Shown one piece after another: positions 17,366 through 44,358 of a DNA stretch of 64,000 nt. The stretch lies in contig NZ_JAFFIX010000002.1 of the NCBI RefSeq assembly GCF_016916835.1, positions 1-64,000 on the forward strand. Direction: 5' to 3'. Position 1 is the stretch's first letter. Each line of letters starts with the position of its first letter. The stretch is from Actinacidiphila bryophytorum. Its GTDB lineage: Bacteria > Actinomycetota > Actinomycetes > Streptomycetales > Streptomycetaceae. The notes beneath the pieces were generated by a model, which saw only the letters and a list, made by a program, of their open reading frames with translations, was not told the origin of the DNA and ran no database searches. Both the position numbers and the translations under genes were made by a program.

Positions 17366-17378
17366 CGAAACTTTCGGC
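17366..17378. promoter_or_regulatory. CGAAA-C-TTTCG box (xylan-regulon type)
   Basis: CCGAAACTTTCGG is a perfect palindrome around a central C, about 35 bp upstream of the lipoprotein start. The same core occurs at 44183-44193 and 44348-44358, on either side of the divergent permease/LacI promoters. CGAAA-N-TTTCG boxes have been described for Streptomyces xylanase promoters, to my recollection. Confidence 0.7.
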
Positions 17379-17413
17379 AGAGCAGAGCCGCACTCCGGCT
17401 CCCGGAGGATCGT

Positions 17414-18721
17414 GTGCCAACGATGAATCGCTTCGCGTCCCTGCGCACCGCGGCGACCGTGGCCGCGGTGACGGCCCTCGCACTGACGGCGTCGGCCTGC
17501 GGCAGCGGCGGTCCCGGGTCCGGCGGGTCCGGCAAGGTGACGGTGTGGTCGCTGCAGAACGACACCCTCAACCCGGTGCAGAAGCAGTCGATCGACTCCT
17601 ACAACTCCGTACACGGCGGGTCGGTGACCCTCAAGACCTTCATCAACGACCCGTACAAGAAGAAGCTGCAGACCGGGCTCGGCGGTGACGACGCCCCCGA
17701 CGTCTTCCTCAACTGGGGCGGCGGCAACCTCGCCGAGTACGTCAAGGCCGGCACCGTCACCGACCTCAGCAAGCGGCTGGACTCCGACTTCAAGGCCGAG
17801 TTCCTGCCCAGCGTGCTGGCCGGCGGCACCGTCGACGGCAAGGTCTACGGCGTCCCGATGGAGGGCGTGCAGCCCGTCGCGTTCTTCTACAACAAGGACG
17901 TCTTCAACCGGGCCGGCATCAAGGAACCGCCCGCCACCTGGCAGCAGTTGCTCACCGACATCGACAAGATGAAGGCCAAGCACATCATCCCGATCGCGCT
18001 CGCCGGGTCGCAGTCGTGGACCGAACTGATGTGGCTCGAATACCTGCTGGACCGGGTCGGCGGCCCGAAGGTCTTCGCAGCGATCGAGGAGGGCAGGCCC
18101 GGGGCGTGGGCCGACCCGGCCGTCGAGACGGCACTCGGCATGATCCGCGACCTGGTCGACCGGGGCGCCTTCGGCACCAAGTACAGCACCGTGGGCCAGG
18201 ATTCGGGCGGCGCCTACGCCCTGCTGGCCGGCGGCAAGGCGGGCATGGAGCTGATGGGCTCGTGGGCCTACGCCGACCTGCTCACCTCGGCGCCCGACTT
18301 CGTCAAGGCGGGCAAGCTCGGCTGGGCGCCCTTCCCGACCGTCCCCAAGGGCAAGGGCGACCCGAAGAACGTGGTCGGCAACCCCTGCAACTACTTCTCG
18401 GTGACCGAGAAGTCGGGCAACAAGTCCGGTGCGGTCGACTTCATCGAGAACACCGTCGACCAGCCCTCCTACATCGCCGACCTGCTGTCCATCGGCCACG
18501 TGCCGGCCATCGCCGGCATCAAGGGCCAGCTGATGGGCGGCATCAACCCCGACTACACCGGCTTCATCTACGGCATGGTCGCCGACGCACCGACCTTCAC
18601 CCAGTCCTGGGACCAGGCGCTGCCGCCGGACACCGCCGCGACGATGCTCACCGACCTGCAGAAGGTCTTCAACAAGCGCATGACGCCGAAGCAGTTCGTC
18701 CAGGCCATGGACGCCGCCTAG
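17414..18721 (+). CDS. Orphan sugar ABC-transporter substrate-binding lipoprotein
   Basis: A 435-residue extracytoplasmic solute-binding protein of the MalE/family 1 type (KVTVWSLQND near the mature start). It has a lipoprotein signal with Cys29 in LTASAC. GTG 17414 has GGAGG five bases upstream; ATG 17423 is the alternative. No permease or ATPase gene adjoins it, so it must share transport components encoded elsewhere. A CGAAA-C-TTTCG box 35 bp upstream links it to the hemicellulose locus at 34-46 kb, which suggests a xylo-oligosaccharide-like ligand. That link is inference. Confidence 0.88.
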   Translation: MPTMNRFASLRTAATVAAVTALALTASACGSGGPGSGGSGKVTVWSLQNDTLNPVQKQSIDSYNSVHGGSVTLKTFINDPYKKKLQTGLGGDDAPDVFLNWGGGNLAEYVKAGTVTDLSKRLDSDFKAEFLPSVLAGGTVDGKVYGVPMEGVQPVAFFYNKDVFNRAGIKEPPATWQQLLTDIDKMKAKHIIPIALAGSQSWTELMWLEYLLDRVGGPKVFAAIEEGRPGAWADPAVETALGMIRDLVDRGAFGTKYSTVGQDSGGAYALLAGGKAGMELMGSWAYADLLTSAPDFVKAGKLGWAPFPTVPKGKGDPKNVVGNPCNYFSVTEKSGNKSGAVDFIENTVDQPSYIADLLSIGHVPAIAGIKGQLMGGINPDYTGFIYGMVADAPTFTQSWDQALPPDTAATMLTDLQKVFNKRMTPKQFVQAMDAA

Positions 18722-18848
18722 CCTCCGCCCCCTGGTCCGGCCGCGCCGCTGTGCGGGCGGATGAAGCCCGGTCGGATTCCGTGGATACGGGACCGGTCCC
18801 CGCCGGATCGGTTTACGATCCCCATCCCAGCGACAGCGGAGAGTTGTG

Positions 18849-20894
18849 ATGACGGACGCCAGGGTCAGGCTGCACGGCCGTGAGCGGGTGGTCGAGTACA
18901 CCAGGGCGGCGCTGGTGCGCCGCGGGGTGCCCGACCGGCCGCTGCCGGTCGTGCTGCTCGCGGGACCCCGCGGGTCCGGCGGCTCGGTGCTGCTCGACAC
19001 CATGTGGGCGCAGTTCGCCGCGGACTGCCTGAGCGTGCGGCTCGACCTTCGCGCGGCGCAGGGCGTCGAGGACATCGTGCTGGCTGCGGTGCGCGGGCTC
19101 GGCCGGCGCATCCCCGGCATCAGGGCCGTCGACTTCCCGCGCACCGCGATGCTGCTCAAGGCGCTGAGCTTCGTGGACTCCGGCGGCGGGCGCACCGCCT
19201 TCGAGGCCTACCTGCGGGCCAACCCGCAGGACGCGCAGGTGCAGTCGGCGCTGACCGACTGGGGCAACCGGGCCGCGGTGCTGCTCAGCCCCGAGCAGCG
19301 CGGGCTGCTGGACGCGCTGACCGGGCTGCTGGGCGCGCTGCACTCGGCGGTGGGCCGGCACCGCAACGACAAGGCGCTGCGCTGGCTGGCGGAACGCGGC
19401 GACGGCGGGCGGGAGTACGACTCGCTGTGGGAGCTGTACCGGCAGCACCACGGCCAGGACGCCCCGACCGGCACCCCGCGGGTCGTGGCCCGCACGTTAT
19501 GCGCGGCGCTGCTCGCCGACTTACGGGCCGACTTCAACGACTCCTGGCCGCGCATGCAGCGCCCCCGCAACTGCCTGCTGCTGCTGGACAACGCCGGCGG
19601 CAGGACCGCCGACCTCTTCCTCGAACTCCTGGCCGAATGCCGCCGGGAGGCCGCGGCGGCGGGGCAGCGCCCGGATCCGGCCGTCGTGGTGGCCGTACAG
19701 CGCGGCCGGGTGCGCCCCGAGGCCGACCGGCTGCTGGAACCGACCGACGAGCGCCTGGAGTTCGGGGTGCGCCACCCCTTCGCGCCGGGCGGCGACGGGC
19801 ACCCGGTGTGGTGGTACCCGGTGGCGCTCGCCGACCTCAACGGCGAGCAGGTGCTGGCCCTGTGCACCAGCAGCGTGCTCGGCCGGCACAACCGCGACGC
19901 CGACTTCCTCTACGAACTCACCGGCGGCCACCCGGAGTCCACAGACCGGCTGGCCGTCCTGCTGGCCCGCTACGGCCGCACTCCCCCGCGCGACCCGCGC
20001 CGCCCGCCCGCGGAGTTGCCCGAGCCCTTCGACCCGCGGCAGCTGCTGGGCAGCCGGCTCGCCGAGGAACAGGCCCTGCCCGAACACTGGCCGGCCCCGG
20101 CCCGGGGCGACAGCACCGTCGAGGACTACCTGCTGCGCCGGGCGCTGGCCGACCACCTGACCGCAGGCGCCGACGGCCGGCTCGCGCCCGAGGACAACCC
20201 GGTGCTCAACGCGATGGCGGCGCTGGCCGCCACCCCCGGCCTGCGCCGCGGCGCCTGCAACGCGGCACTGCACTACCTGGGGTGGAGCGGGGTCGACGCG
20301 GACTCCGCGCAGCTGCGGCTGACCGCCTCGATGTGGCTGGAGGAGACCCCGGAGGGCGAGGCGCTGCGGCTGCACCCGCTGGTCGCGCTGCTGCTGCGCC
20401 GCTGGCTGGCGCGTACCCCCGAGACATGGCGCGCGGTGCACACCGGTTACGCGACGCACTACTCAAGCCGCACCGACGCGCCGCTGCGCCACCACCACAC
20501 CCTGGCGCAGGTCGAGTTGGGCCGCCGCGAGCCGCTGACCACGGTGGTCGGGCACCTGGACGAGGAGTACGAGCGCAGCGCCGACTCCGCCGCCTGGCTG
20601 CGGGTCCTGGACCAGGTCACCGCTGCGCCCAACCGGCTGAGCACCGCGCTCGACCCGCGGACCTTCGTGACCTCGCTGGCGGGCGCTGCCGAGGCCCGCA
20701 ACCGGCGCCGGGCCATCACCCGCCTGACGGTGGCCCGCTGGCTGCACGCCGACCGCACCTTCGACCCGGCGCACCAACTCGCCCACACCATCGCCACCGA
20801 GTACGAACACCTGGCGGAGATCACCGAGGACAACGAGGTCTTGTATCGCGAGGCGGGAAGATTCCGCCGAGTCGAGAACAACTGGAAGGACTGA
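18849..20894 (+). CDS. P-loop-like NTPase with degenerate Walker A
   Basis: A 681-residue cytoplasmic protein. Near the N-terminus LLAGPRGSGGSVLL (about 37-50) looks like a Walker A loop in which the invariant lysine is replaced by glycine. A Walker B-like CLLLLDNAGG follows near residue 240. The remainder is Leu/Arg-rich and helical with no recognised motif. ATG 18849 was preferred over GTG 18846 because GGAG lies 7 bases upstream. The next gene encodes a membrane-anchored periplasmic-binding-like protein, so the pair may form a sensing unit. Loss of the lysine makes strong ATP hydrolysis doubtful. Confidence 0.7.
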   Translation: MTDARVRLHGRERVVEYTRAALVRRGVPDRPLPVVLLAGPRGSGGSVLLDTMWAQFAADCLSVRLDLRAAQGVEDIVLAAVRGLGRRIPGIRAVDFPRTAMLLKALSFVDSGGGRTAFEAYLRANPQDAQVQSALTDWGNRAAVLLSPEQRGLLDALTGLLGALHSAVGRHRNDKALRWLAERGDGGREYDSLWELYRQHHGQDAPTGTPRVVARTLCAALLADLRADFNDSWPRMQRPRNCLLLLDNAGGRTADLFLELLAECRREAAAAGQRPDPAVVVAVQRGRVRPEADRLLEPTDERLEFGVRHPFAPGGDGHPVWWYPVALADLNGEQVLALCTSSVLGRHNRDADFLYELTGGHPESTDRLAVLLARYGRTPPRDPRRPPAELPEPFDPRQLLGSRLAEEQALPEHWPAPARGDSTVEDYLLRRALADHLTAGADGRLAPEDNPVLNAMAALAATPGLRRGACNAALHYLGWSGVDADSAQLRLTASMWLEETPEGEALRLHPLVALLLRRWLARTPETWRAVHTGYATHYSSRTDAPLRHHHTLAQVELGRREPLTTVVGHLDEEYERSADSAAWLRVLDQVTAAPNRLSTALDPRTFVTSLAGAAEARNRRRAITRLTVARWLHADRTFDPAHQLAHTIATEYEHLAEITEDNEVLYREAGRFRRVENNWKD

Positions 20895-20986
20895 CGAGCG
20901 AGCTGCCGCAGTGGCCGGCCGAGGCACGAGGCCGTCCGCGGAGGCAGCGAGGAGGAAGTCCGCCCGACACGAGAGATAGGACTGAC

Positions 20987-22552
20987 GTGTTCGCCACCGT
21001 ACGCGCGTATGTGGGGCACTTACCGGTCGGCGCACGCCGGCTGCTCGCCGTCGTCTGCGTGCTGGCGCTCGCCGCGGTCGGCTACGGCGTGTACGTCCCC
21101 GTCGACCATCTGCTGAACAAGCCCTGCATGCGCAAGGGCGCCACGGCCGTCGTGCACCACGGCTCGAACGGCGAGTGCGTGGGGATCACCGACGGCTCCT
21201 ACGTCTTCCACCCCACCCTGCGGGACGCCGAGGAGGCGATCCGCAAGGAGAACCGGGACGTCCTCGACCACCACGCCACCAACTACGTCAGCGTGGTGCT
21301 GATGCTGCCGATATCCGCCGACAAGGGCAGCATCCTGTCGATGCCGAACGCCCTGGAGCAGTTGCAGGGCGCCTTCACCGCGCAGCACTACGCCAACCGC
21401 AACAACGTCGAGGGCATCACGCCGTACGTCCAGCTGCTCATCGGCAGCGACGGCTACCAGGCCAACGCCTGGCAGTCCGCGGTCTCCACCATCGTCGGCG
21501 ACCACAGCCGGCACATCGCCGCGGTCACCGGCTTCGGGCTGAGCCTGGCCGGCACCGAGAGCGCCATCAAGGAGCTGACCGCACACAGCATCCCGGCCTT
21601 CGGCGCGACCCTCACCTCCGACAACTACGACAACATCAAGGGCTTCGTGCGCGCCTCGCCCAGCAACGTCGACAACATGGCCGCCGCACTGTCCTACGTC
21701 GAGTCCGACTACAAGCGGGCGGTGCTCGTCGAGGACGGGAACGCCGACGACTCCTACGACGTCACGCTGGTCAGCGGCTTCCGCAAGTTCTCCGCCATAC
21801 CGGGCCACCGGATCGTCGGCGTGGAACCGTACGACACCTCGGAGCGCGACCGCGACGGGCAGTCGGCGGAGGAGCGCAGGCGGCACCAGACCGAAGTGGC
21901 CACCCGGATCAGCCAGATGACCACCAACATCTGCGCCGCGCAGCCCGCCGTGGTGCTCTTCGCCGGGCGCGGGCAGGACCTCGGGGTGCTGGTGCACGCC
22001 TTCTCCAACACCTGCCTGGACAAGCAGATCCGCATCGTCAGCGGCGACGACGTCACCAACCTGCCGGACAGCGAGCAGCTGCGGCAGGACCTGCGCGGGC
22101 ACGTCACCGTCGACTACGCGGGCGTCGCCCACCCCGGCGAGTGGTCGGACTCCGCGGGGCACGACCAGGCCCACGCGGCCGCGGCGGCCGAGGGCGCCCA
22201 GGGCTTCCGGATTTTCGACACGGCCTTCCACCAGCTCTTCCCGCGCGGCTACCTCGGCGACGGCAACGCGATGATGGCCTACGACGCCACGCTCACCGCC
22301 ACCGCGGCGATCCGGCTCACCGAGCAGCAGCAGCCGCAACCCGACGCGGTGGTCAACGAGTTGGGCGCGCTGCAGGGCGCGCACAAGGTGCTGGGGGCCA
22401 GCGGCCCGATCCAGTTCACCGCCAACTACCAGACCAGCCGCACCGGCAGCAATCCCGTCGCCAAGCCCATACCGATCATCCGCCTCACTCCGCAGGGCAA
22501 CCCCCGTGTGCTGACGGTGAAGTGGCCGGACGAGGCTCCGCCGGTGGGCTGA
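20987..22552 (+). CDS. Membrane-anchored type I periplasmic-binding-like protein
   Basis: A 521-residue protein with one membrane segment at about 19-37 (LLAVVCVLALAAVGYGVYV) and an extracytoplasmic domain of the Leu/Ile/Val-binding type: paired Rossmann-like lobes, with the segments AAVTGFGLSLAG, IPAFGATLTSDNYDNIKGFVR and AVLVEDGNADDSYD typical of that fold. GTG 20987 begins just before the membrane segment. There is no permease nearby. With the preceding P-loop-like protein it forms an apparent two-gene unit (92-bp gap), which fits ligand sensing better than transport. Confidence 0.75.
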   Translation: MFATVRAYVGHLPVGARRLLAVVCVLALAAVGYGVYVPVDHLLNKPCMRKGATAVVHHGSNGECVGITDGSYVFHPTLRDAEEAIRKENRDVLDHHATNYVSVVLMLPISADKGSILSMPNALEQLQGAFTAQHYANRNNVEGITPYVQLLIGSDGYQANAWQSAVSTIVGDHSRHIAAVTGFGLSLAGTESAIKELTAHSIPAFGATLTSDNYDNIKGFVRASPSNVDNMAAALSYVESDYKRAVLVEDGNADDSYDVTLVSGFRKFSAIPGHRIVGVEPYDTSERDRDGQSAEERRRHQTEVATRISQMTTNICAAQPAVVLFAGRGQDLGVLVHAFSNTCLDKQIRIVSGDDVTNLPDSEQLRQDLRGHVTVDYAGVAHPGEWSDSAGHDQAHAAAAAEGAQGFRIFDTAFHQLFPRGYLGDGNAMMAYDATLTATAAIRLTEQQQPQPDAVVNELGALQGAHKVLGASGPIQFTANYQTSRTGSNPVAKPIPIIRLTPQGNPRVLTVKWPDEAPPVG

Positions 22553-22602
22553 CCGGTAGGGTACGGACGAGAGTTCGGCCCGCGGCCTGAGGGGGAGCGA
22601 GG

Positions 22603-24879: not shown

Positions 24880-24881
24880 CC

Positions 24882-26525: not shown

Positions 26526-26534
26526 GCCCCCGGC

Positions 26535-26552
26535 CCACCCGGCCTCGGGTGG
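26535..26552. terminator. Short hairpin between convergent genes
   Basis: CCACCCG (26535-26541) pairs with CGGGTGG (26546-26552) around a 4-nt loop, ten bases after the DUF4139 gene and upstream of the convergent ArsR gene's end. The rest of the 208-bp gap is GC-rich and shows no gene. Confidence 0.45.
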
Positions 26553-26733
26553 CGCCCCCGCCGAACCGCCCCCGCGGGCGGGAGGCGTCCGGCAGCCCTG
26601 CCCCGGGGTGCCCCGGACCGTCTCGCGGCTCGACGCGGCGTCCAGGCCGGGGGTGCCCGGCACGGCTCAACGCGGTCCGCCCCGGTAGCCCGACGGGGGG
26701 CGTCCCGGCCTCGCTCGTACGCGGGCGCGTGCG

Positions 26734-27572: not shown

Positions 27573-27641
27573 GGCTCGCTCCTTCGTCCGTCGTCCGTCG
27601 CCCGTCCGTCACATCCGCGGACCTCGTTCAGCCGCAACTCC

Positions 27642-27684
27642 AGCGTTGCACACCCCGTGCCGTCGTGCAACCTCCTGGTTGCAC
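27642..27684 (-). promoter_or_regulatory. Promoter and GTTGCAC repeats upstream of SRPBCC-ArsR
   Basis: The heptamer GTTGCAC occurs three times: at 27645-27651, in reverse at 27665-27671, and at 27678-27684. On the minus strand TTGCAC (27670-27665) is followed after 17 nt by AACGCT (27647-27642), a plausible -35/-10 pair, so the repeats straddle the promoter as an ArsR operator would. The 409-bp gap to the SsuD gene otherwise shows no gene. Confidence 0.5.
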
Positions 27685-27981
27685 CATCACCCGGTCGGGC
27701 GCCCGGGGCCTCGTCGCCAGGGCGCCCCGCCTCGATTACCGACGGGCGCGTGCATCAGGGAATGAGGCTGGTCTGCCGCCTCCACGTCGACCTCCTCCGG
27801 TCGGCCAGCGCACCGTGTCCGTAGGGCCGTCGCAGCCGTAGCACGGCCGACGGCCGCTCGTCGCCGAGGAATTACCCGGCGACAGCCCCGCCCGCGTCCT
27901 CCGACGCCTACGCGACACCTCTTCCCACACCTTTCCAGGGCGGCGGTCCGCCCTGCCCTGCCGCACATACGGAGTCCTGGC

Positions 27982-33770: not shown

Positions 33771-33782
33771 CGAAACTTTTCG
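33771..33782. promoter_or_regulatory. Imperfect CGAAA-N2-TTTCG box upstream of GH67
   Basis: CGAAACTTTTCG has the same half-sites as the boxes at 17366, 44183 and 44348 but a two-base centre (CT). It lies about 120 bp upstream of the GH67 start. The extra base could weaken repressor binding. Confidence 0.5.
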
Positions 33783-33901
33783 CTCCGCAAGGATTTCCGC
33801 ACCAGCCGTGACCTCGGCATTTACCTCGTTATTCGGATTCTGTAGATTCGGTGCCGGGCCGCGCCATGGCGGCCGTCGGGCGAGTGAGGCGGGAATTCTC
33901 C

Positions 33902-35977
33902 GTGGGCATGGACACAGCGACCGGTGTACACGCGGCATGGCTGCCGCCCGAGGCTTTCCGTGCGCTCGGCTCGCACCGGGTGCTGGTGCGGGGCGACGGG
34001 CCGCTCGCGGTGACGGTGTACGAGGAGGTGGCGCGGGCCTGCGTCGATTACGGGGGCCGGGTGGGGCGTTCGCCCGACGCCGAGGCGGGCCCGTACGACC
34101 TCGTGTTCGCGCTGACCGGTGACGTACCCGCGCTGCCCGCGGTGGTGGACGTGCGGGCCGCGGCCGGTGCGGAGCCGCTCGGCGAGGAGGGGTTCGTCTT
34201 CGCCCGGGTCGGCGGTGTCTGCTTCGTGCTGGCCGACGCGGCGGCGGGGCTGCTGTACGGGCTCTTCCACGTGGTGCGCCTCGGCGGGTCGGCTTTCGAG
34301 GGCGGCGACGTCCCGGCCGCAGCGCACCGCCCGGCGATGCGCACCCGGATGCTGGACCACTGGGACAACCTGGAAGTGCACCCGGTGATGGGCCACGTCG
34401 AGCGGGGTTACGCAGGAGGGTCGGTCTTCTGGCGGGACGGCGGGCCGCGCGGCGACCTGCCGCGGGTGCGGGCGTACGCGCGGCTGCTCGCGGCGACCGG
34501 GATCAACGCGGTGTCGGTGAACAACGTCAACGTGCACACCGCGGAGACGCACCTGCTGACCGACCGGCTGGGCGACGTCGCCGAACTCGCGGACGTCTTC
34601 CGCCCGTACGGCATCCGGCTGCACCTGTCGGTCAACTTCGCCTCGCCCGTGGTGCTGGGGGCGCTGACGACCGCCGACCCGCTGGACGGCGAGGTCCGTG
34701 CCTGGTGGGCGAAGGCCGCCGCGGGGGTCTACCAGGCGATACCGGACTTCGGCGGCTTCGTGGTGAAGGCCGACTCCGAGGGCCAGCCGGGGCCTTTCAG
34801 TTACGGGCGCAGCCACGCCGACGGCGCCAACATGCTCGCCGAGGCGCTGGCGCCCTTCGGCGGCGAGGTGCACTGGCGGGCGTTCGTCTACAACCACCAG
34901 CAGGACTGGCGCGACCGCTCGACGGACCGCGCGCGGGCCGCCTACGACCACTTCGCCCCGCAGGACGGCGAGTTCGCCGCGAACGTGGTGCTCCAGGTCA
35001 AGCACGGGCCGATGGACTTCCAGACCCGCGAACCGGTCTCCCCGGTGATCGCGGCGATGCCCCGCACCCGGCTGGCGGTGGAGTTGCAGGTCACGCAGGA
35101 GTACACCGGGCAGCAGCGGCACGTGTGCTACCTGGCCCCGATGTGGAGCGGCGTCCTCGGCTTCCGGCCGTGGGGCGACGGCGGCGAGGCACGCGACGTC
35201 GCGGCGCTGGCCGCCGACCCGGCAGCGGGCGGCGGCCTGGTCGCGGTGTCCAACGTCGGCGACGACCCGTACTGGACCGGGCACCCGCTGGCGCAGGCCA
35301 ACCTGTACGCCTTCGGCCGGCTCGCCTGGGCGCCGGACAGCGACCCGGCGGCGCTGCTCGACGAGTGGATCGACCTGACCTTCGGCGCGCTGCCGTCGGG
35401 CGACCCCGCCCCGCTGCGCAGCACCCTGCACGCGGTGATGGACGGCTCGTGGCAGACCTACGAGCGCTACACCGCACCGCTCGGCGTCGGCTTCATGGTC
35501 CGCCCGGGCCACCACTACGGGCCCGACGTGGACGGCTACGAGTACACCCCGTGGGGCACCTACCACTACGCCGACCGCGACGGCATCGGCGTGGACCGCA
35601 CCCGCGCGACCGGCACCGGCTACACCGGGCAGTACCCGCAGCCCTGGTCGGAGGTCTACGAGTCCGCCGAGCGGTGCCCCGACGAACTGCTGCTGTTCTT
35701 CCACCACGTGCCGTACGGGCATGTGCTGCACTCGGGCACCACGGTGATCCAGCACATCTACGACACGCACTTCGCCGGCGCCCTGGAGGCGGAGGCGATG
35801 CGGTCGCGGTGGGCGGAGCTGGCGGGCGGCGGCCTGGTCGACGCGGCCCTGCACACGCGGGTGGCGGAGCGCCTGGACGAGCAGGTGCGGTGCGCACAGG
35901 AGTGGCGCGACCAGGTCAACGCCTACTTCCTGCGCAAGTCCGGGGTGCCGGACGCGCACGGGCGGCACATCCCGTAG
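33902..35977 (+). CDS. GH67 alpha-glucuronidase
   Basis: A protein of 691 residues without a signal peptide, consistent with intracellular action. Family motifs include [34 protein letters not shown] (with the probable catalytic-acid Glu), the Asp region [20 protein letters not shown] (Glu proposed as base) and [14 protein letters not shown]67 enzymes remove 4-O-methylglucuronic acid from the non-reducing end of xylo-oligosaccharides. GTG 33902 is preferred because GGCGGGA lies about 7 bases upstream; ATG 33908 is two codons later. A CGAAA-box variant upstream points to control by the nearby LacI repressor. Confidence 0.93.
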
Positions 35978-36042
35978 CCGCACACCGGCCGGCGCCGAAG
36001 CGGCGGACAGCGAAACGGCGAAACGGCGGACGGTGAAAGGCG

Positions 36043-36078
36043 AACGCCGCCGCCCTCCGGACGAGGGGCGGCGGCGTT
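36043..36078. terminator. Bidirectional terminator between GH67 and GH42
   Basis: AACGCCGCCGCCC (36043-36055) and GGGCGGCGGCGTT (36066-36078) form a perfect 13-bp stem with a 10-nt loop between two convergent stops. Confidence 0.75.
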
Positions 36079-36096
36079 CTGGGCCGGAGCGCGGGC

Positions 36097-38124
36097 TCAG
36101 TCGTCCTCGCGCAGCACCCGCACCCCGTATGCGTCCAGGCCGAACGGGCGGCCCGGAGTGATGTGTTCACCGGTGAGGAGGTCCAGGCCTCCGGCGCCCG
36201 CGGGCACCTCGACCGGCTCGGCGGCGTGGTTGAGCAGGAACAGCAGCCTTGTCCCGTCGGGCGCGACGCGGGCGGCGGTCTCCAGGTGCGGCAGGTCCGG
36301 GTGGCGGCCCGCGATGCCGTGTGCGTCGAGCACCTGCCGCACGACGTGGCCGACGCCGGCCTGGTCGAGCCCGGCGGCGACGTACCAGCCGTGCCCGGCG
36401 CCGAAGGGGTTCCTGGTGACGGCGGGTGTACCGGCGTAGAAGTCGGCCTGGTAGGTGGCCAGGACCTCGGCTCCCTGCGGGACGACCAGTTCGAAGACCA
36501 GCCGGGCCTCGGCGTCGGGGGAACCGTCGCCGAAGCGCACCGGGTTGGCGAACTCGGGGCCGCGGGCGTCCCATTCGTCGATCCTGACGCCCATCAGCGG
36601 GCCGAGCGGCCCGGGGACGTCCATGAGGAAGGCGTTGTCGGACTCGTCGACCCGGCCCGACAGGTAGCAGGACAGGACGGAGCCGCCGCGTTCGGCGACC
36701 GCTTCGAGCCGCTGCGCCAGGTCGCCCTTGACCATGTGCAGGGCCGGGGCGACGACCACGTCGTAACGCGACAGGTCGGCGGTGACCGGGACGACGTCGA
36801 CGTCGACGCCCGCCTCCCACAGCGCCCGGTAGTAGCTGAGCACCACCTGCTGGTAGCGGACCAGGCGGGAGGGGCCGTCGGAGATCTCCAGCGTCCACCA
36901 GCTGTCCCAGTCGAAGAGCAGCGCGGTGCGCGCCGGTGTGCGGGCACCCAGCGCCGCACTGCCCAGCCGCTCCAACTCCTCGCCGAGGGCGGCGACTTCG
37001 CGGAAGACCCGGGTGTCGTCGCGTCCCGCGTGGTTGATGACCGCACCGAAGAGCTTCTCGCTGGCGCCCCGTGAGGCGCGCATCTGGAAGAAGAGGACCG
37101 CGTCGGCGCCGTGGGCGACCGCCTGCCAGCTCCACAGCCGCATCACCCCCGGCCGCTTGAGCGGGTTGACGTCGCGGCACGCGGTGGTGCTCGGCGCCTG
37201 CTCCATCAGCCAGAACGGCTGGCCGTCCTTGAGGCCGCGCATCAGGTCGTGACTCAGTCCCATCCAGGCCGGCGACTGGTCTTCCGGCGGGTAGTTGTCC
37301 CAGGACGCGAAGTCCAGGTGGGGCGCCCACCGGTGGTAGTCGATCGGGCGGTACATGCCCATGAAGTTGGTGGTGACCGGGGTGTCGGGGCTGTGGCGGC
37401 GGATCGCGGCCTTCTCGTCGCGGAAGTTGGCGAGCATCGCGTCCGACATGAAGCGCAGGTAGTCCAGGGTGATGCCCTGGAAGGCGGTGTGGTCGGGGCC
37501 GCGCCAGTGCTCGGTGAGCGCGGAGGGCGCCTCGATCTCGTCCCAGTCGGAGAAGGTGTGCGACCAGAACGTGGTGTTCCACGCGGTGTTGAGCGCGTCC
37601 AGGGTCGCGTACCGCTCGCGCAGCCAGCCGCGGAAGCCCGCCGTGCAGTTCTCGCAGTAGCAGGCGCCGCCGTATTCGTTGCCCACGTGCCAGGCGATGA
37701 CCGCGGACCGGTCGGCGTACCGCTCCGCGATGCGCCCTGCGACGGCCGCGGACAGCCGCCGGAAGACCGGGGAGCTGGGGCAGGAGTTGTGCCGCTGCCC
37801 GTAGCGGTGCCTGCGGCCCTCGAAGTCGGTGCGGGTGACCTCGGGGTGGGCGCGGGCCAGCCATGCGGGGTGGGCGCCGGTGCCGGTGGCCAGGCAGATC
37901 CGCCGGCCGTGCGCCTCGGCCTCCGCGACGATCCGGTCCAGGACGGTGAAGTCGTAGGTCTCCTCGGCCGGCTGGGTCAGCGCCCAGGTGAAGACGCCGA
38001 GGGTGACGGTGTCGATGCGGGCGCTGTCGAAGAGCCGGTAGTCCTGCTTCCACACCTCCTGCGGCCACTGCTCGGGGTTGTAGTCCCCGCCGTAGGGCGT
38101 GCTGGGGGTGGCGGGCAGGCTCAT
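36097..38124 (-). CDS. GH42 beta-galactosidase/arabinopyranosidase-type enzyme
   Basis: A 675-residue cytoplasmic GH42 enzyme. The GH42 core shows YGGDYNPEQWP at the start, acid/base Glu150 in WHVGNEYG, probable nucleophile Glu308 in WLMEQAPS, and the cysteine cluster ACYCENC (155-160) that binds zinc in many members. GH42 enzymes remove terminal beta-galactose, or alpha-L-arabinopyranose in some. Here it is the last gene of a six-gene hemicellulose operon and overlaps the DUF624 stop by ATGA. A side-chain-trimming role on imported oligosaccharides is inferred. Confidence 0.93.
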   Translation of the reverse strand: MSLPATPSTPYGGDYNPEQWPQEVWKQDYRLFDSARIDTVTLGVFTWALTQPAEETYDFTVLDRIVAEAEAHGRRICLATGTGAHPAWLARAHPEVTRTDFEGRRHRYGQRHNSCPSSPVFRRLSAAVAGRIAERYADRSAVIAWHVGNEYGGACYCENCTAGFRGWLRERYATLDALNTAWNTTFWSHTFSDWDEIEAPSALTEHWRGPDHTAFQGITLDYLRFMSDAMLANFRDEKAAIRRHSPDTPVTTNFMGMYRPIDYHRWAPHLDFASWDNYPPEDQSPAWMGLSHDLMRGLKDGQPFWLMEQAPSTTACRDVNPLKRPGVMRLWSWQAVAHGADAVLFFQMRASRGASEKLFGAVINHAGRDDTRVFREVAALGEELERLGSAALGARTPARTALLFDWDSWWTLEISDGPSRLVRYQQVVLSYYRALWEAGVDVDVVPVTADLSRYDVVVAPALHMVKGDLAQRLEAVAERGGSVLSCYLSGRVDESDNAFLMDVPGPLGPLMGVRIDEWDARGPEFANPVRFGDGSPDAEARLVFELVVPQGAEVLATYQADFYAGTPAVTRNPFGAGHGWYVAAGLDQAGVGHVVRQVLDAHGIAGRHPDLPHLETAARVAPDGTRLLFLLNHAAEPVEVPAGAGGLDLLTGEHITPGRPFGLDAYGVRVLREDD

Positions 38125-38810
38125 GCGGTGAATTCCTCGCGGATCTCGGTGATCATCGGGCGGCTGTTGAGCAGCGTGCCCGCGGCGGCGACCGACGCCA
38201 GCAGCAGGGGCAGCAGCTGGGCGCCGGCGGCCGTCACGGCGACGGCCGCGGCCAGCACGCACAGGTTGCCCACGGTGGCCTTGAAGGACTTCACCAGGAA
38301 GTACGCGGCCAGCCGTGCGGTGTCGACGGCCTTGAAGGTGAACAGCGCGGTGATCACCAGCGCGTTGGCCATCCACAGTGCGGAGACCGCCGCGATCACC
38401 GCGAGCAGCCCCAGCCACCAGCCGGGCACACCGGCCGCGTCGCGGTGGGTGAGGACGGTGCCGACCAGTCCCATCGCGACGAGCCACGGCGCCCACAGCG
38501 TGAACACCCCGGGGACGGCGGCCCGGTACCCGCGCCGGTACGCCTTCGCCGGGTGCAGTTCCGTCAGGTCGCGGCTGCGGTGGTGCCAGGCGTAGAGCGC
38601 CGCGGACCAGGCCGGTCCCAGGGGAAGTGCGCACAGCGCGGCCAGCGGCACGTTGCTCGCGTCGCGGTCGAGCAGCCCGAGCAGCACCAGGCCGGGCGCC
38701 GCGCCCAGCACCAGCAGCACTTCGAGGACGAGCAGGCTGTAGACCAGGGCGGCGGCGCGGGCCAGCGGGCCTTCGCCGAACTCCTTGCGTGCCGCGGACG
38801 CGGTCGTCAT
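38121..38810 (-). CDS. DUF624 (YesL-like) membrane protein
   Basis: A 229-residue protein with about five or six hydrophobic helices and the DUF624 pattern: an N-terminal LARAAALVYSLLVLEVLLVLG-type segment, a central GPAWSAALYAWHHRSRD and a C-terminal FKATVGNL. YesL-family proteins recur in oligosaccharide-uptake operons of Bacillus and actinomycetes, function undefined. It is embedded between GH39 (one base upstream) and GH42 (ATGA overlap). Confidence 0.88.
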   Translation of the reverse strand: MTTASAARKEFGEGPLARAAALVYSLLVLEVLLVLGAAPGLVLLGLLDRDASNVPLAALCALPLGPAWSAALYAWHHRSRDLTELHPAKAYRRGYRAAVPGVFTLWAPWLVAMGLVGTVLTHRDAAGVPGWWLGLLAVIAAVSALWMANALVITALFTFKAVDTARLAAYFLVKSFKATVGNLCVLAAAVAVTAAGAQLLPLLLASVAAAGTLLNSRPMITEIREEFTA

Positions 38811-38811
38811 G

Positions 38812-40353
38812 TCATGCCCCTCCGTCGCGCTGCGGCTGCGGGGCCAGGCCGAGCAGCCGGCTCTCGTCCCACCATGCGGGGGTCTCGTCCTGCACCGGTG
38901 TCAGTTCCAGCAGGGTGACCTCGTGCCGGGCGAGCACCAGGTCGCAGTCGACGCGCCCGCCGGCCACCGGCAGGGAGCGGTGGCTGCGGGCGGGCTCCGA
39001 CGCCTCGCGCAGGGCGTCGAGCTGGCGCCGGCCGGGTGAGGCGGGCCGGCCCATCTCGCACCAGGCGGCGTAGGCGTTGCCGGAGTCCTCGGCGACCGTG
39101 GAGCGGTGGGCGTAGACGGCCGAGCCCTCGGGGCCGCCCACCGGGACCGACAGCCGTACGGTGTGGCCGTCGACCGGTTCGCCGCCGGTGACGTCGACCG
39201 GCGCCCAGGCCAGGACGGTGACCCGGCCGTCGTCGTGCCGGGTGACCAGGTGGTCCTCGCCCCGGGCGAGCACCGTGTCGCCCATGCGGGCCATGAAGGC
39301 GTACAGGTGGTAGGTCGGCTTCTTGATCTGGCGGTGCGTCAGCAGGCCGAACCCGCCGTGGAAGAGGGTGGTGGGGATGCCGACCTCCTCGAACATGTCG
39401 CTGAAGGTCCAGTAGGAGAAGGAGTCGACCAGGTCGCCGCCCGCCGCCAGCACCGGCGCCAGGTAGGCGGCGTGCATCGCGGTGTCGTGGATCGGGTTGT
39501 CGGGGCGGTAGGAGGAGTTGAACTCGGTGATGTGCACCGGGAGTTCGGCCAGCTCGGTGCCGGCCAGCTGCTCGCCGGGCGCCGCGAACTGCTCCAGCAG
39601 CCCCGAGGCGGGCACCAGGGTCTGGTGGGTGCCGAAGGGCACCTCCTGGGCCGGTCCCGAGGTGTAGGCGTGCCGGCTGACGAAGTCGATCGGCGCCGAG
39701 CGCTCGGCGACGAAGTCGGCGAAGCGGGTGATCCACTCCGGCTGGTAGCCGGGCGCCAGCGAGGGGCCGCCCACCTGCAGTGCCGCGTCCACGTCCTTGA
39801 CGGCGGACGCGGTCACCTCGTAGAGCCGGTGGTAGGCGTCCTGGTCGGCGCCCTCCCAGAAGACGTCCAGGTTCGGCTCGTTCCACACCTCGATGGGCCA
39901 GGTCCGCACCTCCTCCAGGCCGTAGCGCGCGATCAGGTGCCGCACGGTGGCGCGCACCAGTTCCGCCCACTCCCGCCAGTCGCGCGGCGGGGTGACGTTG
40001 CCCTGCCACCAGAAGACGGTCTGGTCGCCGGAGGCCAGGCCCGAGGGCATGAAGCCCAGTTCGACGAAGGGCTTGATCCCCAGGTCGAGGTAGGCGTCGA
40101 CGACCTGGTCGACGTAGCCGAAGGAGTGCCGTACGTGCCGCACCCCCTGGTACTCGTACGGCCGGTGGATGCCGACGTTGTCGCTGAGCAGGCCGTGGCC
40201 CCTGATGTGCCGGAATCCGATGTCGCGCTGCACGAGCGCCAGGGAGTCCTGGTAGTCGCGCCGCAGCGCGAGGTCGAACCGGCCGGTTCCGACGCAGAGG
40301 CGCCAGGCCTCCGTCAGCTGTCCTGCGGGCTGGTCGGGAACGTGGATGCGCAT
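38812..40353 (-). CDS. GH39 beta-xylosidase
   Basis: A 513-residue GH39 enzyme without signal peptide. Acid/base Glu159 lies in EVWNEPNL and nucleophile Glu277 in HITEFNSSY. The SFSYWTFSDMFEE and FHGGFGLLT motifs, which close the barrel, are also typical. It should release xylose from imported xylo-oligosaccharides. It lies between the binding-protein gene (55-bp gap) and DUF624 (one base) in a single minus-strand unit. Confidence 0.93.
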   Translation of the reverse strand: MRIHVPDQPAGQLTEAWRLCVGTGRFDLALRRDYQDSLALVQRDIGFRHIRGHGLLSDNVGIHRPYEYQGVRHVRHSFGYVDQVVDAYLDLGIKPFVELGFMPSGLASGDQTVFWWQGNVTPPRDWREWAELVRATVRHLIARYGLEEVRTWPIEVWNEPNLDVFWEGADQDAYHRLYEVTASAVKDVDAALQVGGPSLAPGYQPEWITRFADFVAERSAPIDFVSRHAYTSGPAQEVPFGTHQTLVPASGLLEQFAAPGEQLAGTELAELPVHITEFNSSYRPDNPIHDTAMHAAYLAPVLAAGGDLVDSFSYWTFSDMFEEVGIPTTLFHGGFGLLTHRQIKKPTYHLYAFMARMGDTVLARGEDHLVTRHDDGRVTVLAWAPVDVTGGEPVDGHTVRLSVPVGGPEGSAVYAHRSTVAEDSGNAYAAWCEMGRPASPGRRQLDALREASEPARSHRSLPVAGGRVDCDLVLARHEVTLLELTPVQDETPAWWDESRLLGLAPQPQRDGGA

Positions 40354-40408
40354 GTGGTGTGGTCCTTTTGTGACTGCGTCGGTGCCGGCCGGTTCTGCTC
40401 CGCCGGGG

Positions 40409-42085
40409 TCAGCTCTTGTCGCCGCCGGCCTTGGACTTCTTGTAGCGGTCGTAGGCGCCGTTGATCAGGCTGAGGTACTGGTCGCCGTTCTTGCCCTTGA
40501 GTTCGCTCTTGAAGGCGTCCCACTGGCTGAGCGGGCGGTCGCCGAGGATGAACTTCAGGGTCTGCTGCTGGACGTAGTCCTTCAGCGGCGCCTCGTACAG
40601 CGCGAACTGCTCCTGCTCGTCGGCGTTGAGCGGGTGCGGCGGCGGCACGGGCAGCGTCTTGCGGGCGTTCATCACCTTCTGGAAGTCCTTCTCCTCCTGC
40701 GAGAAGGTCGACTCCAGCAGCTGGGTGCTGCCGCCGTAGGCGAAGTTGCCGTTGGAGAAGCCGAAGTCCACGTTGAGCTTCTTGGTCGCGGTCGGGTTGA
40801 GCCCGACGTAGTCGACGTCGTTGGTCAGGTGGAAGTTGCCGGCCGCGTCACGGGTGTACGTCACGCCCTCGACGCCCCACTTGGCGAAGATCTGGCCGTC
40901 GTCGGAGTAGAACAGCCAGTCCACGAACTGCATCATGGCGACGAAGTCCTTGGAGTCGCGCGCCTTGGTGGAGATCATCAGGCCGTTCTCCAGCCGCAGG
41001 CCGACCTTCACGGCACCGGCCGGGCCGATCGGCACCGGGATCTTGGCGACCTTGCCGTTCGGGACCGACTTGGCCAGGCCCGGACGGTAGATGTTGACCA
41101 GCTCCTGCGCGTTGGTGCTGATCACGAACGACTTGCCGGAGGTGAACTTCGCCTCGGCCTGGTCGTCGGTCTGGGTGAAGCTCTCCGGGTCCAGCAGCTT
41201 CTCCGCCACCAGCGTGTGGACGTACTCGATCATGCCCTTGTACTGGTCCATCGCACCGGTGAGGACGAACTTGCCGGCGGCGGTGTCGAAGGTGGCGTTC
41301 TGGTAGCCCCAGCCGCCGCCGTAACCGCAGCCGTAGGCCTGGCCGATGGTCTGCAGCAGCGCACCGCCCGCGGTGGGCTGGTTCCAGCGGTCCGACATCG
41401 GGTACGAGTCGGGGTGCGCGGCCTTCATCGCCTTGAGCACGTTGTGCAGGTCGTCGAGCGTCTCGGGGACCTGCAGACCCAGCTCCTCGAGGATGTCGGT
41501 GCGGATCGCGAAGGTGTAGTCGATCCACACGTCCTGGTGCAGACCGGGCAGCACGTAGTACTTGCCGTCGTCCTGCAGGAGGGTCTCCACGTCGCCCTGC
41601 AGATTCCACCGGGCGACCTTGTCGCGGTAGTTGGGCAGCAGGTCGACGTAGTCGCTGACCGCCAGGATCGCGCCCGAGGCGACGAAGGGCACCTCCTGCC
41701 CGGTGTAGGTCTTCGGCAGCAGGGCCGGGGCGCTGCCGGAGCCGATCAGGACGCTGCGCTTGTTCTCGTAGTCGCTGAGCGGCACCACGGTCGGCTTGAG
41801 CGTGACGTTGGTGCGCTTGGCGAGCTCGGTCCAGAACAGCCAGCCGGCCTTCTCCGGATAGCCCGGGTTGTCGTTGAGCAGCGTGGTGAAGGCGATCGGC
41901 TTGGCCGCCTTGAACTGCTCGTTGACGCCGAACTTGTCCATGGCGTCTTCTCTGTTCTTCGACAGGTCCTTGCCCTTGTCGTCGGAACCGCTGTCGCTGC
42001 TGCAGCCGGTGAGCCCCAGGGTGGCCGCACCGAGCGAGGCCGCACCGAGCGAGACCAGCATCGAGCGCCGGGAGATGTTGTTCAT
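40409..42085 (-). CDS. Sugar ABC-transporter substrate-binding lipoprotein (LplA-like)
   Basis: A 558-residue binding protein of the large LplA/YtcQ type that partners LplB/LplC-like permeases. A twin-arginine-like signal (SRRSML) leads to a lipobox with Cys28 (LTGC). The mature part shows the family-typical long form with GMIEYVHTLVAEKLLDPESF and ending in a helical Lys-rich tail. It follows the two permease genes (48-bp gap), and an oligosaccharide ligand from xylan or a related hemicellulose is inferred from the enzymes in the operon. Confidence 0.92.
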   Translation of the reverse strand: MNNISRRSMLVSLGAASLGAATLGLTGCSSDSGSDDKGKDLSKNREDAMDKFGVNEQFKAAKPIAFTTLLNDNPGYPEKAGWLFWTELAKRTNVTLKPTVVPLSDYENKRSVLIGSGSAPALLPKTYTGQEVPFVASGAILAVSDYVDLLPNYRDKVARWNLQGDVETLLQDDGKYYVLPGLHQDVWIDYTFAIRTDILEELGLQVPETLDDLHNVLKAMKAAHPDSYPMSDRWNQPTAGGALLQTIGQAYGCGYGGGWGYQNATFDTAAGKFVLTGAMDQYKGMIEYVHTLVAEKLLDPESFTQTDDQAEAKFTSGKSFVISTNAQELVNIYRPGLAKSVPNGKVAKIPVPIGPAGAVKVGLRLENGLMISTKARDSKDFVAMMQFVDWLFYSDDGQIFAKWGVEGVTYTRDAAGNFHLTNDVDYVGLNPTATKKLNVDFGFSNGNFAYGGSTQLLESTFSQEEKDFQKVMNARKTLPVPPPHPLNADEQEQFALYEAPLKDYVQQQTLKFILGDRPLSQWDAFKSELKGKNGDQYLSLINGAYDRYKKSKAGGDKS

Positions 42086-42133
42086 GTCAGACTCCCTTCC
42101 CGCCGTGCGCGGGAGTTCGAGGTGGGTGGGATG

Positions 42134-43057
42134 TCAGCCCTTGACCGCGCCGAGGGTGACTCCCGAGACGAAGTACCGCTGGACGAAGGGGTAGACGACC
42201 AGGATCGGAAGCGTGGTCAGCACGATCGTGACGGCCTGGATGTTGGCGCCGAGCGCGCTCGCGTCGGCCTCGGAGGCACCGACGGACGTCGCGTTGGTCG
42301 ACCCGTAGATCAGGTTGCGCAGGTAGACCGTGACCGGCATGAGGTCGGAGTGGTCCATGTAGAGGAAGGCGGCGAACCAGGAGTTCCAGAAGGAGACCGC
42401 GTAGAAGAGCACCATCGTGGCCAGCACCGCCTTGGACAGCGGCAGCACCACGCGCCAGAGGATGCCGTAGGTGTTCAGGCCGTCGATCGCGGCGGCCTCC
42501 TCCAGTTCGACCGGCAGCCCCTCGAAGAACGCCTTCATCACCAGCAGGTTGAAGACGCTGATCGCGTTGGGCAGCGCGATGGCCCACACGCTGTTCTTCA
42601 GGCCGAGGGTGGTGACCAGGACGTAGTTGGGGATCAGGCCGCCGGAGAAGAACATCGTGAAGACCGCGACCCCGACCAGCACGCCCCGGCCGCGCAGGTC
42701 CCGCTTGGACAGCACGTACGCGTAAGCAGTGGTCAGAACCATCGCGACGACCGTGGCGACCACGGTGTAGACGACCGTGTTGCGGTAGTCGGTCCAGAAC
42801 ATCGAGTTGGTCATCACGGCCTTGTAGGTCGTGACGTTGAAGCCGCGCGGCAGCAGGTTGACCTTGCCCGAGCGGATGTAGCCGTCGCTGCTGAAGGAGC
42901 GGGCCACGATGTTGACGATCGGGTAGAGGGTCGCAATCACGACCCCGGTCAGGATCAGGCCGTTGACGACCTGGAAGACCCGGTAGCCGCGGGTGGTGCG
43001 GATGCCCGCCGGCTGCGTCGGCCGGTCCTCGATGGTGGCGTTGGTGTCCAGGGTCAC
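42134..43057 (-). CDS. ABC sugar permease (LplC/CUT1 type)
   Basis: A 307-residue inner-membrane permease with six helices. The cytoplasmic EAA loop is EEAAAIDGLNTYGILWRVVLP, the ATPase contact site of CUT1 importers. GTG 43057 overlaps the stop of the other permease (GTGA); a GTG three bases upstream is equivalent. No ATPase gene is in the window; Streptomyces sugar importers usually share a single MsiK-type ATPase. Confidence 0.93.
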   Translation of the reverse strand: MTLDTNATIEDRPTQPAGIRTTRGYRVFQVVNGLILTGVVIATLYPIVNIVARSFSSDGYIRSGKVNLLPRGFNVTTYKAVMTNSMFWTDYRNTVVYTVVATVVAMVLTTAYAYVLSKRDLRGRGVLVGVAVFTMFFSGGLIPNYVLVTTLGLKNSVWAIALPNAISVFNLLVMKAFFEGLPVELEEAAAIDGLNTYGILWRVVLPLSKAVLATMVLFYAVSFWNSWFAAFLYMDHSDLMPVTVYLRNLIYGSTNATSVGASEADASALGANIQAVTIVLTTLPILVVYPFVQRYFVSGVTLGAVKG

Positions 43058-44076
43058 CACAGGCTCGTCCCCACTGTGCGACGGGAGATCCGGTTGGCCG
43101 ACACGATCAGCACCAGGCCGATCAGCGACTCGAACAGGCCGATCGCGGCCGCGTAGCTGAAGTTGTTGGAGACCACGCCCATCCGGTACAGGTACGTGGA
43201 GACGACATCCGCCGTCGGGTAGGTCAGCGGGTTGTACAGGAGCAGGATCTTCTCGAAGCCGACCGCCATGAACGTGCCGATGTTGAGGATCAGCAGCGTG
43301 ACCATCGTCGGCCGGATGCCCGGCAGCGTGACGTGCCAGGTCTGCTTCCACCGGTTGGCGCCGTCGATCCGCGCGGCCTCGTAGAGGTTGTCGTCGATCG
43401 AGGTGAGCGCGGCCAGGTAGAGGATGGTGCCCCAGCCCACGGTCTGCCACAGCTCGGACGACACGTAGATCGAGCGGAACCAGCCGGGTTGCTGGATGAA
43501 GAGGATCGGCGAGTGCCCGAAGTGGTGCAGCGCCTGGTTGACCGGGCCGTCCGCGGCCAGGAACTGCATCACCACGCCGGCCACGATCACCGTGGACAGG
43601 AAGTGCGGCAGGTACGAGACCGACTGGACCAGCTTCTTGAACTTGCGGCTGCGCACCTCGTTGAGCAGCAGCGCCAGCACGATCGGCATCGGGAAGCAGA
43701 AGACGAGCGTCAGCAGCCCGATGACCAGCGTGTTGGTGAAGACGTGCCAGAACGTCGGGTCGTGCCAGAACAGCCTGAAGTACCGCATGCCGACCCACTG
43801 GTCGCCGAACATGCTGCCGCCGGGGTGGAAGCGGCGGAAGGCGATGACGTTCCCGGCCATCGGCAGATAGCGGAACACCGCGAAGAAGGTCAGCGGCAGC
43901 ACCGCGAGCGAGTAGAGCTGCCAGTCGCGGCGCAGTGACTGGCGCCAGGTGCGCCGCCCCTGGCTGCGGTTGCGGCCCATGCGCCCGACGCGCCCTTTCG
44001 GCCGGGTCCGGGCGGAACTCCGCCCGCCCGCGCCGGGCGCGTCGGACGGCAGGTCCACCGTCCTGGTCGTGCTCAT
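43054..44076 (-). CDS. ABC sugar permease (LplB/CUT1 type)
   Basis: A 340-residue permease. A basic cytoplasmic head (about 1-60) is followed by six membrane helices and the EAA loop YEAARIDGANRWKQTWHVTLP. ATG 44076 has a GGAGG site upstream. It is the first gene of the operon permease-permease-binding protein-GH39-DUF624-GH42. The CGAAA-box at 44183-44193 lies about 107 bp upstream. Confidence 0.93.
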   Translation of the reverse strand: MSTTRTVDLPSDAPGAGGRSSARTRPKGRVGRMGRNRSQGRRTWRQSLRRDWQLYSLAVLPLTFFAVFRYLPMAGNVIAFRRFHPGGSMFGDQWVGMRYFRLFWHDPTFWHVFTNTLVIGLLTLVFCFPMPIVLALLLNEVRSRKFKKLVQSVSYLPHFLSTVIVAGVVMQFLAADGPVNQALHHFGHSPILFIQQPGWFRSIYVSSELWQTVGWGTILYLAALTSIDDNLYEAARIDGANRWKQTWHVTLPGIRPTMVTLLILNIGTFMAVGFEKILLLYNPLTYPTADVVSTYLYRMGVVSNNFSYAAAIGLFESLIGLVLIVSANRISRRTVGTSLW

Positions 44077-44182
44077 CGTGGGCCTCCGTGCGGTGGATGG
44101 GCGACGCACGCCCACCGACGCTGGCACTGGTCAGGCCGGGGAGGGCCTTCCAGGAGGCGGCATGAGAACTAGCGGGCGGAGT

Positions 44183-44193
44183 CGAAACTTTCG
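44183..44193. promoter_or_regulatory. CGAAA-C-TTTCG box, permease-operon promoter
   Basis: CGAAACTTTCG is a perfect palindrome around C, followed directly by a partial second copy (CGAAACTCG). It lies upstream of the minus-strand import/hydrolase operon and fits a LacI-family operator. Confidence 0.72.
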
Positions 44194-44347
44194 AAACTCG
44201 TGCTTAATGTGTCGGGCAGCCTAAGGACGTGGCAGAACGGGTGTCAATAGGCGCGACAGCGGGTTTCCAGCCTGGCCGAGCCGCCCCAGGTGGCGTATAT
44301 TCACCGCCTGGCCACTCGTTCGGTTCAGACAGTTTCACGACAAAAAC

Positions 44348-44358
44348 CGAAAGTTTCG
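44348..44358. promoter_or_regulatory. CGAAA-G-TTTCG box, LacI promoter
   Basis: CGAAAGTTTCG, the same box with a central G, 37 bp upstream of the proposed TTG start of the LacI gene. Its position supports autorepression. TATATT at 44296-44301 may be a -10 element; I see no good -35. Confidence 0.7.

Follow-up and report, generated by a model that had tools for sequence, protein, structure and literature searches.

The hemicellulose locus and its palindromic boxes

The first 64,000 nucleotides of contig NZ_JAFFIX010000002.1 of Actinacidiphila bryophytorum (the whole of this stretch is hereafter called the window) contain a hemicellulose locus in which a short palindrome of the form CGAAA-N-TTTCG precedes several genes: a solitary gene for a sugar-binding lipoprotein (the orphan binding protein), an ATP-binding cassette (ABC) transporter operon, the divergent gene of a LacI-family repressor (called W below) and a gene of glycoside hydrolase (GH) family 67. 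We consider it likely that these boxes are the operators of a sugar-induced xylan-utilization regulon of the BxlR type, repressed by W and, most likely, by a BxlR-type sister protein. The elements of the window on which this proposal rests are listed here in order of position; genomes, loci and contigs are designated by G, L and C numbers.

17313..17341, + strand: promoter-like element TTGACG-N17-TACGTT for the gene of the orphan binding protein (pattern match; 24 nt from its end to the box)
17366..17376: CGAAACTTTCG, operator-like box of the same gene (exact match)
17423..18721, + strand: orphan ABC sugar-binding lipoprotein, BxlE-like (Pfam SBP_bac_1; 3vxb, 380 bits)
33771..33782: box CGAAACTTTTCG with a two-base centre, upstream of GH67 (exact match)
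33820..33848, + strand: promoter-like TTTACC-N17-TAGATT of GH67, downstream of the GH67 box (pattern match)
33884..35977, + strand: GH67 alpha-glucuronidase (PF07488, PF07477; start by codon-bias script)
36097..38124, - strand: GH42, beta-galactosidase family (PF02449)
38121..38810, - strand: 229-aa protein without Pfam match, hydrophobic by eye (order kept in G059, G039, G043, G055 and G002)
38812..40353, - strand: GH39, a family that includes beta-xylosidases (PF01229)
40409..42085, - strand: ABC solute-binding protein of 558 aa, distant relative of AlgQ1/AlgQ2 (SBP_bac_1; best solved match 55 bits)
42134..43060, - strand: ABC permease 2 (PF00528)
43054..44076, - strand: ABC permease 1, first gene of the divergent operon (PF00528; ATG and GGAGG located)
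44183..44193: operator-like box of the permease operon (24 nt past the -10 element; conserved in orthologues)
44218..44247, - strand: promoter-like TTGACA-N18-TAGGCT of the permease operon (pattern match)
44348..44358: operator-like box of the LacI gene (exact match)
44395..45432, + strand: LacI-family repressor W, TTG start (PF00356, PF13377; several orthologues align from residue 1)
45521..46492, + strand: acetyl xylan esterase AXE1 (PF05448)

A pattern search of the window for CGAAASTTTCG (S being C or G) found the three eleven-base boxes as exact matches, and the GH67 gene is preceded by the twelve-base form. An earlier note on this DNA had already joined the four genes through one box, longer-centred at GH67; that linkage and three of its positions stand, and the first box, written there as 17367-17377, lies at 17366-17376. 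When one mismatch is allowed the window holds four matches, the fourth being a single-mismatch site at 52744, against a mean of 0.17 over 100 shuffles, none of which reached four. The distance from box start to start codon is 57 bp for the orphan binding protein (ATG at 17423), 107 bp for permease 1 (ATG at 44076, with GGAGG as its Shine-Dalgarno sequence), 47 bp for W (TTG at 44395) and 113 bp for GH67, whose start was picked by the codon-bias script. The two boxes between W and the permease operon are 165 bp apart, a spacing found unchanged in G059, G131, G039 and G043.

The placement of the boxes relative to promoters was also considered. At the orphan gene, at the permease operon and at two targets outside the window (a GH10 xylanase gene and an ABC operon on contig C28), a match to a TTGAC-type promoter is followed by a box that starts 23-27 nt past the -10 element, so that a bound repressor would block the start of transcription. 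The promoter element of the orphan gene is also matched in G059, G039 and G131, and is visible by eye in G043. The GH67 box starts 49 nt before its promoter match and the boxes of two GH11 genes 96 and 158 nt before theirs; the pattern used found no promoter at W or at the carbohydrate esterase family 15 (CE15) gene described below.

Distribution of the box in the genome

The whole genome (8.05 Mb in 96 contigs) was scanned with the reversed pattern as control, and gene boundaries in the loci fetched were set by codon-bias scripts, no standard gene finder being used. CGAAASTTTCG has eight exact sites and CGAAA-N(1-3)-TTTCG 21, the control giving none in either case. Allowing up to one mismatch gives 31 sites, and 10 for the control; single-mismatch sites are therefore weak evidence and exact boxes were used. 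All eight exact sites adjoin hemicellulose or sugar-uptake genes, so that the genome-wide motif scan proposed in the earlier note does not find the box spread over unrelated genes here. Besides the three sites of the window (17366, 44183 and 44348), they lie beside a GH11-CBM2 xylanase on C6, a GH10 xylanase on C7, a second GH11 xylanase on C23, the C28 operon, which comprises an arabinofuranosidase and a solute-binding protein whose best solved relative, 3zkk (413 bits), binds xylo-oligosaccharides, and, on C34, a CE15-type glucuronoyl esterase ahead of a polysaccharide deacetylase. Thirteen further sites have other centres. By our reading, nine accompany polysaccharide genes: one each at GH67, RGL11, the BxlR-type cluster, the C28 operon (its second box) and a secreted ricin-lectin protein recognized by eye at a contig end, and two each at GH12 and a second bxl-like cluster. 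The other four are at unrelated genes. The second bxl-like cluster, made up of a LacI, a solute-binding protein and GH3, carries its two boxes, both with three-base centres, at L027:6033-6200.

That the exact boxes are chance matches has a practically negligible probability and is ruled out for our purposes. Nothing favors this explanation for exact boxes, only single-mismatch forms being seen to arise by chance, and it is contradicted by the window shuffles, by the empty reversed control in this genome, by the 410 exact boxes found in 200 family genomes against 34 for the control, and by the conservation of boxes at orthologous promoters, including those upstream of W.

The box also has a published counterpart. 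In the portion of PMC4743123 available, CGAAACTTTCG is given as the BxlR site, and deletion of bxlR raises an xysAp reporter by 70% at 72 h; in that of PMC12772271, the BxlR homologue is recovered in pull-downs with xylanase promoters. Between them, these sources give the motif as CGAAACTTTCG or CGAA-Nx-TTCG. The statement in the earlier note that similar boxes have been reported for Streptomyces xylanase promoters agrees with the box published in PMC4743123, as far as the available text goes. The boxes of A. bryophytorum have this form, and their eight exact sites are at xylanase, xylo-oligosaccharide uptake and related genes.

LacI-family proteins related to W

W is not the only candidate reader. 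A BxlR-type LacI is encoded on another contig (C13:95549), divergent from a BxlE-like binding protein (best match 3vxb, 368 bits), two permeases (by gene order) and GH3, and it has its own CGAAA-Nx-TTTCG box, as expected of a bxl cluster. In a tree that included 24 of the 42 LacI matches of this genome, W and the BxlR-type protein, which are 53% identical, fall into sister groups (support 95/89), themselves supported at 100/99 and 100/100. Both are nested in a clade of seven paralogues from this genome (100/98), in which C12b forms a long branch of unsure placement. This topology, together with the separate bxl cluster, rules out that W is the BxlR orthologue. According to Pfam, five of the seven members are at hemicellulose genes: W, C1 (GH10), C13 and C12b (both GH3) and C2 (GH115). 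C77 has a GH43-like gene beside it, recognized by eye only; no hemicellulose gene was seen near C41 on the 9 kb read at a contig start.

The paralogues at 54-57% identity are not favored as readers of the box, since 18 of the 21 such loci read have no box upstream, one has a relaxed box and two have a strict one (L169 and L182). Two clade loci deserve a separate mention. In a Streptacidiphilus genome (L251:1492-2502), the gene of a clade LacI of another type, with an STPTVSK helix, diverges from one for a BxlE-like protein, and no box was found upstream; given this case, the name bxlR may need care among the clade paralogues. At L154:6450-11011, a paralogue with an LPTVSR helix is divergent from a GH115 gene and the gap between them holds CGAAACTTGCG and CGGAAGTTCCG.

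Conservation of the box in relatives

The best 80 of 102 candidate loci were kept as W orthologues. A strict box with a one-base centre lies upstream of the orthologue in 62 of the 80 (31 of 46 when copies at least 90% identical are removed), and one with a two-base centre in two. A relaxed nine-base form is upstream in 69, twice in 48 of them, and occurs elsewhere in these loci only 13 times in 1.454 Mb.

Exact boxes were assigned to genes in the six W-bearing genomes of the genus, where 42 exist and 41 were examined, one of G131 being left out. Using our own gene calls, 37 of the 41 are at the W locus or at most 700 bp upstream of xylan or uptake genes (8/8 in G000 and in G059, 8/9 in G043, 5/5 in G055 and in G131, 3/6 in G039). 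The four misses are two unrelated sites in G039, one site of the same genome beside another LacI of the clade, LacI-S, and an acyl-CoA-ligase-like gene in G043.

More distant relatives help to separate W from BxlR. The BxlR-type protein was used as query against 30 of the 80 W-orthologue genomes with a cut-off of E<=1e-95. In nine Micromonosporaceae genomes the single match is W itself (100%), and these genomes hold 36 boxes with any centre base, the control giving two. Thirteen of the 36 are in the W promoter region and 23 outside it, 13 of the latter by genes for GH10 (in five genomes), GH11 (two), GH43 (two), CE15, AXE1, a solute-binding protein with GH3, or GH1-like proteins. Among the nine, G221 is not strictly W-only, since it encodes an additional LacI with 47% identity to W. 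In two Micromonospora genomes, the same box is found beside genes for similar membrane proteins, DUF4956-like by eye and not obviously connected with xylan (L306:4030 and L300:14499).

Since boxes mark xylanase genes in genomes that yielded no close clade member besides W, it is very likely that W reads the box. The proposal of the earlier note that the local LacI is its natural reader is upheld in part: W is a plausible reader, given the strict one-base box of most of its orthologues and the xylanase boxes of Micromonosporaceae, but it is probably not the only one. BxlR is the characterized reader, this genome has a separate BxlR-type LacI with its own box, which very likely also reads the sequence, and five clade paralogues besides, the GH67 box has the two-base centre of the BxlR-type operator, and in two relatives LacI-S stands beside the orphan gene. 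We accordingly do not accept W as sole reader.

An alternative, possible but somewhat doubtful, is that the BxlR-type LacI alone reads the distal boxes (those of the orphan protein, GH67 and the xylanases) and that W controls nothing more than its own divergent promoters. BxlR is the reader characterized in the available parts of PMC4743123 and PMC12772271, and the GH67 box shares its two-base centre with the BxlR-type operator found in the same genomes. Box counts in the 200 family genomes were also compared. With W called at >=77% identity (8 genomes) and the BxlR-type orthologue at E<=1e-130 (51 genomes), the mean number of exact boxes per genome is 7.4 with W (n=8), 3.2 with the BxlR-type protein only (n=45) and 1.4 with neither (n=147), absence being defined by threshold; the first figure favors the shared reading, the second against the third this alternative. 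Nevertheless, the nine Micromonosporaceae genomes in which W is the sole match keep boxes at GH10, GH11, CE15 and GH43 genes, with the caveat of the additional LacI in G221.

Several observations weigh against a conserved xylan regulon read by W and BxlR. The family-genome counts just cited are confounded by kinship and xylanase content, and in G039 just three of six exact boxes are at xylan or uptake genes. In Micromonosporaceae, nine of the 23 boxes outside the W promoter region are at unrelated genes, within coding sequence or near no called gene, and one more is by another LacI. Among eight W-like loci of Cellulomonas/Actinotalea type, none has the strict box and one has the relaxed form; a palindrome scan of the Cellulomonas-type loci gave no common replacement motif, and the two Cellulomonas genomes searched have no box with any centre base. 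The seven clade paralogues have similar recognition helices, which makes any assignment of a repressor to a box provisional. Among the five genomes compared, A. bryophytorum alone has a perfect promoter-proximal box at the orphan gene. Finally, on C34 a divergent 176-aa gene of unknown role starts closer to the box than the CE15 esterase; as, in addition, no esterase was called at the equivalent box of G059, G055 and G131, where the deacetylase is 361-515 bp off, the CE15 target is less sure than the others.

The orphan binding protein

By its sequence, the orphan lipoprotein is a BxlE-like binding protein. Its closest solved relative is 3vxb, which we take to be BxlE of S. thermoviolaceus (380 bits, the next match having 142). 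The counterparts of its box are CGTAACTTTCG in G131, a two-mismatch form in G059, CGTAAACTTACG in G043 and a partial form only in G039; a perfect box is present at a greater distance upstream in G059 and G043.

In G059 and G039, LacI-S adjoins the BxlE-like orphan gene (L216:5127-6227 and L219:16817-17815). The window has no such gene at this place, and none of the 24 LacI proteins of this genome included in the tree is on the LacI-S branch. The orphan-gene box could then be a remnant that once belonged to a local LacI-S lost in this lineage, and the divergent position of LacI-S beside the orthologous gene in these relatives would suit such a history, as would the branch without a protein of this genome. 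Yet in four relatives the promoter-proximal box is less perfect than here, and G043 has a box farther upstream with no LacI-S on the stretch read. A remnant seems quite improbable to us, and a functional operator of the BxlR-type regulon is preferred.

The neighborhood of the orphan gene also contains two genes, for proteins of 682 and 521 aa, that match no Pfam family (window positions 18846-22552); both follow it in G039, G043 and G131 and were not seen in G059. Farther on, two adjacent DUF4139/DUF4140 proteins (22657-26525) stay together in the relatives read. On the other side, a GH59 (galactocerebrosidase family) protein with ricin-type lectin domains (12571-15309) adjoins a GH76 gene.

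Length of the box centre and the LacI hinge

The length of the box centre may sort the targets, a pattern that is suggestive only. Of 51 BxlR-type loci found, 30 were fetched and 29 read; each has one strict box, with a centre of two bases in 22, one in four and three in three. The GH67 box has a two-base centre in all six W-bearing genomes of the genus, which all also hold a BxlR-type LacI with a two-base box. In G002 its centre is one base, and in G034 GH67 lacks a strict box; neither of these genomes has a BxlR-type LacI at the threshold used. One scenario would be a partition coded by the spacer, in which W reads one-base centres only and the BxlR-type protein one to three bases, so that one-base sites answer to both and two-base sites (GH67, bxl) to BxlR alone. 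The contrast between 62 one-base and two two-base strict boxes among the 80 W orthologues, the 22, 4 and 3 loci with two-, one- and three-base boxes on the BxlR side, and the shift at GH67 from two bases in the six genomes with both repressors to one in G002 are what such a partition predicts. The genomes compared are not independent, however; the missing strict box of G034 does not fit, and at L077 both the strict W box and the relaxed second box have two-base centres. Moreover, G002 (same contigs as G203) has a LacI 60% identical to the BxlR-type protein. The gene of this LacI diverges from one for a BxlE-like protein and lacks its own box, and its presence makes G002 insecure as a genome with W only. 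It counts against the spacer partition, which we hold to be unlikely, and against the hinge scenario below.

The LacI hinge may be related to the same pattern. In the parts of the sources available, the hinge leucine inserts into a central CG, with rare exceptions (PMC2978694), and 1251 of 1303 LacI-family regulators have even palindromes, mostly with a central CG (PMC4052901). The LacI proteins of this genome were surveyed by eye at 25 of 30 loci, 12 further matches having no locus. The canonical motif PNxxARxL (A..L) is absent from all seven clade members and present in 15 of the 18 other LacI proteins read; among the 80 W orthologues, A..L falls within the slice in two, in neither at the canonical place. 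Hinge loss is not a mark of this clade alone, as three other LacI proteins of the genome (L050, L051 and L056) also lack the motif. Within the W group, no clear relation of hinge sequence to centre length was seen by eye (L077, L116).

A contracted centre without CG would fit a clade without the hinge leucine. More boldly, the whole actinobacterial xylan-repressor clade (W, the BxlR-type protein and at least five paralogues) could have lost the hinge helix and moved to operators with centres of one to three bases; loss of this lever would free the spacing, and paralogues sharing a half-site would split their targets by centre length, W being nearly strict for one base and BxlR accepting one to three. 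We regard this scenario as tentative and somewhat unlikely. A narrow literature search found no link in print between hinge loss and contracted operators.

A proposed xylan-utilization regulon

The preferred reading of the boxes, as operators shared by W and the BxlR-type protein, suggests the following course of events. Without xylan, W and, most likely, its BxlR-type sister would occupy CGAAA-N-TTTCG and block the promoters, at several of which they would sit just past the expected transcription start. Xylo-oligosaccharides freed by xylanases would be taken up by ABC transporters, and the sugar would release the repressor, inducing xylanases, esterases, uptake systems and GH67. W would govern itself and the divergent uptake operon through its two boxes. 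The orphan lipoprotein would be a second BxlE-like binding protein under the same switch, its permeases being probably encoded elsewhere.

The predicted regulon is itself of the known BxlR type and is well conserved. It resembles the BxlR regulon of Streptomyces (the S. thermoviolaceus bxl cluster, SLI7232 of S. lividans and SACTE_0535 of SirexAA-E) in the box CGAAACTTTCG, in the LacI repressor encoded beside a xylo-oligosaccharide ABC system and in the boxes at GH10 and GH11 xylanases. It differs in that W belongs to a sister group, located beside an AlgQ-like solute-binding protein, GH39, GH42 and GH67 rather than BxlE and GH3, often with two boxes, and in that this genome holds, besides W, a cluster that is of BxlR type by its gene neighborhood and box. 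The aldouronate-utilization clusters of Paenibacillus, with an LplA-YtcP type transporter and GH67, likewise combine GH67 with a large solute-binding protein and two permeases at a single locus. The W locus differs from them in having boxes of its own and a predicted regulator from the BxlR clade of LacI proteins. Like canonical LacI-family operators, the boxes are inverted repeats as read by a LacI-family dimer; unlike those described in the available part of PMC4052901, they have centres of one to three bases without a fixed CG and belong to repressors without the hinge motif. The hinge and the centre-length pattern are the more unusual part of this system and worth testing.

The boxes define from sequence a predicted xylan regulon with a list of targets, and tie an orphan xylobiose-type binding protein to it. 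They also suggest two or more likely readers for the published BxlR box, in which case motif scans alone cannot assign targets to BxlR. Finally, the hinge-less clade would offer a direct way to test the role of the LacI hinge helix in operator spacing.

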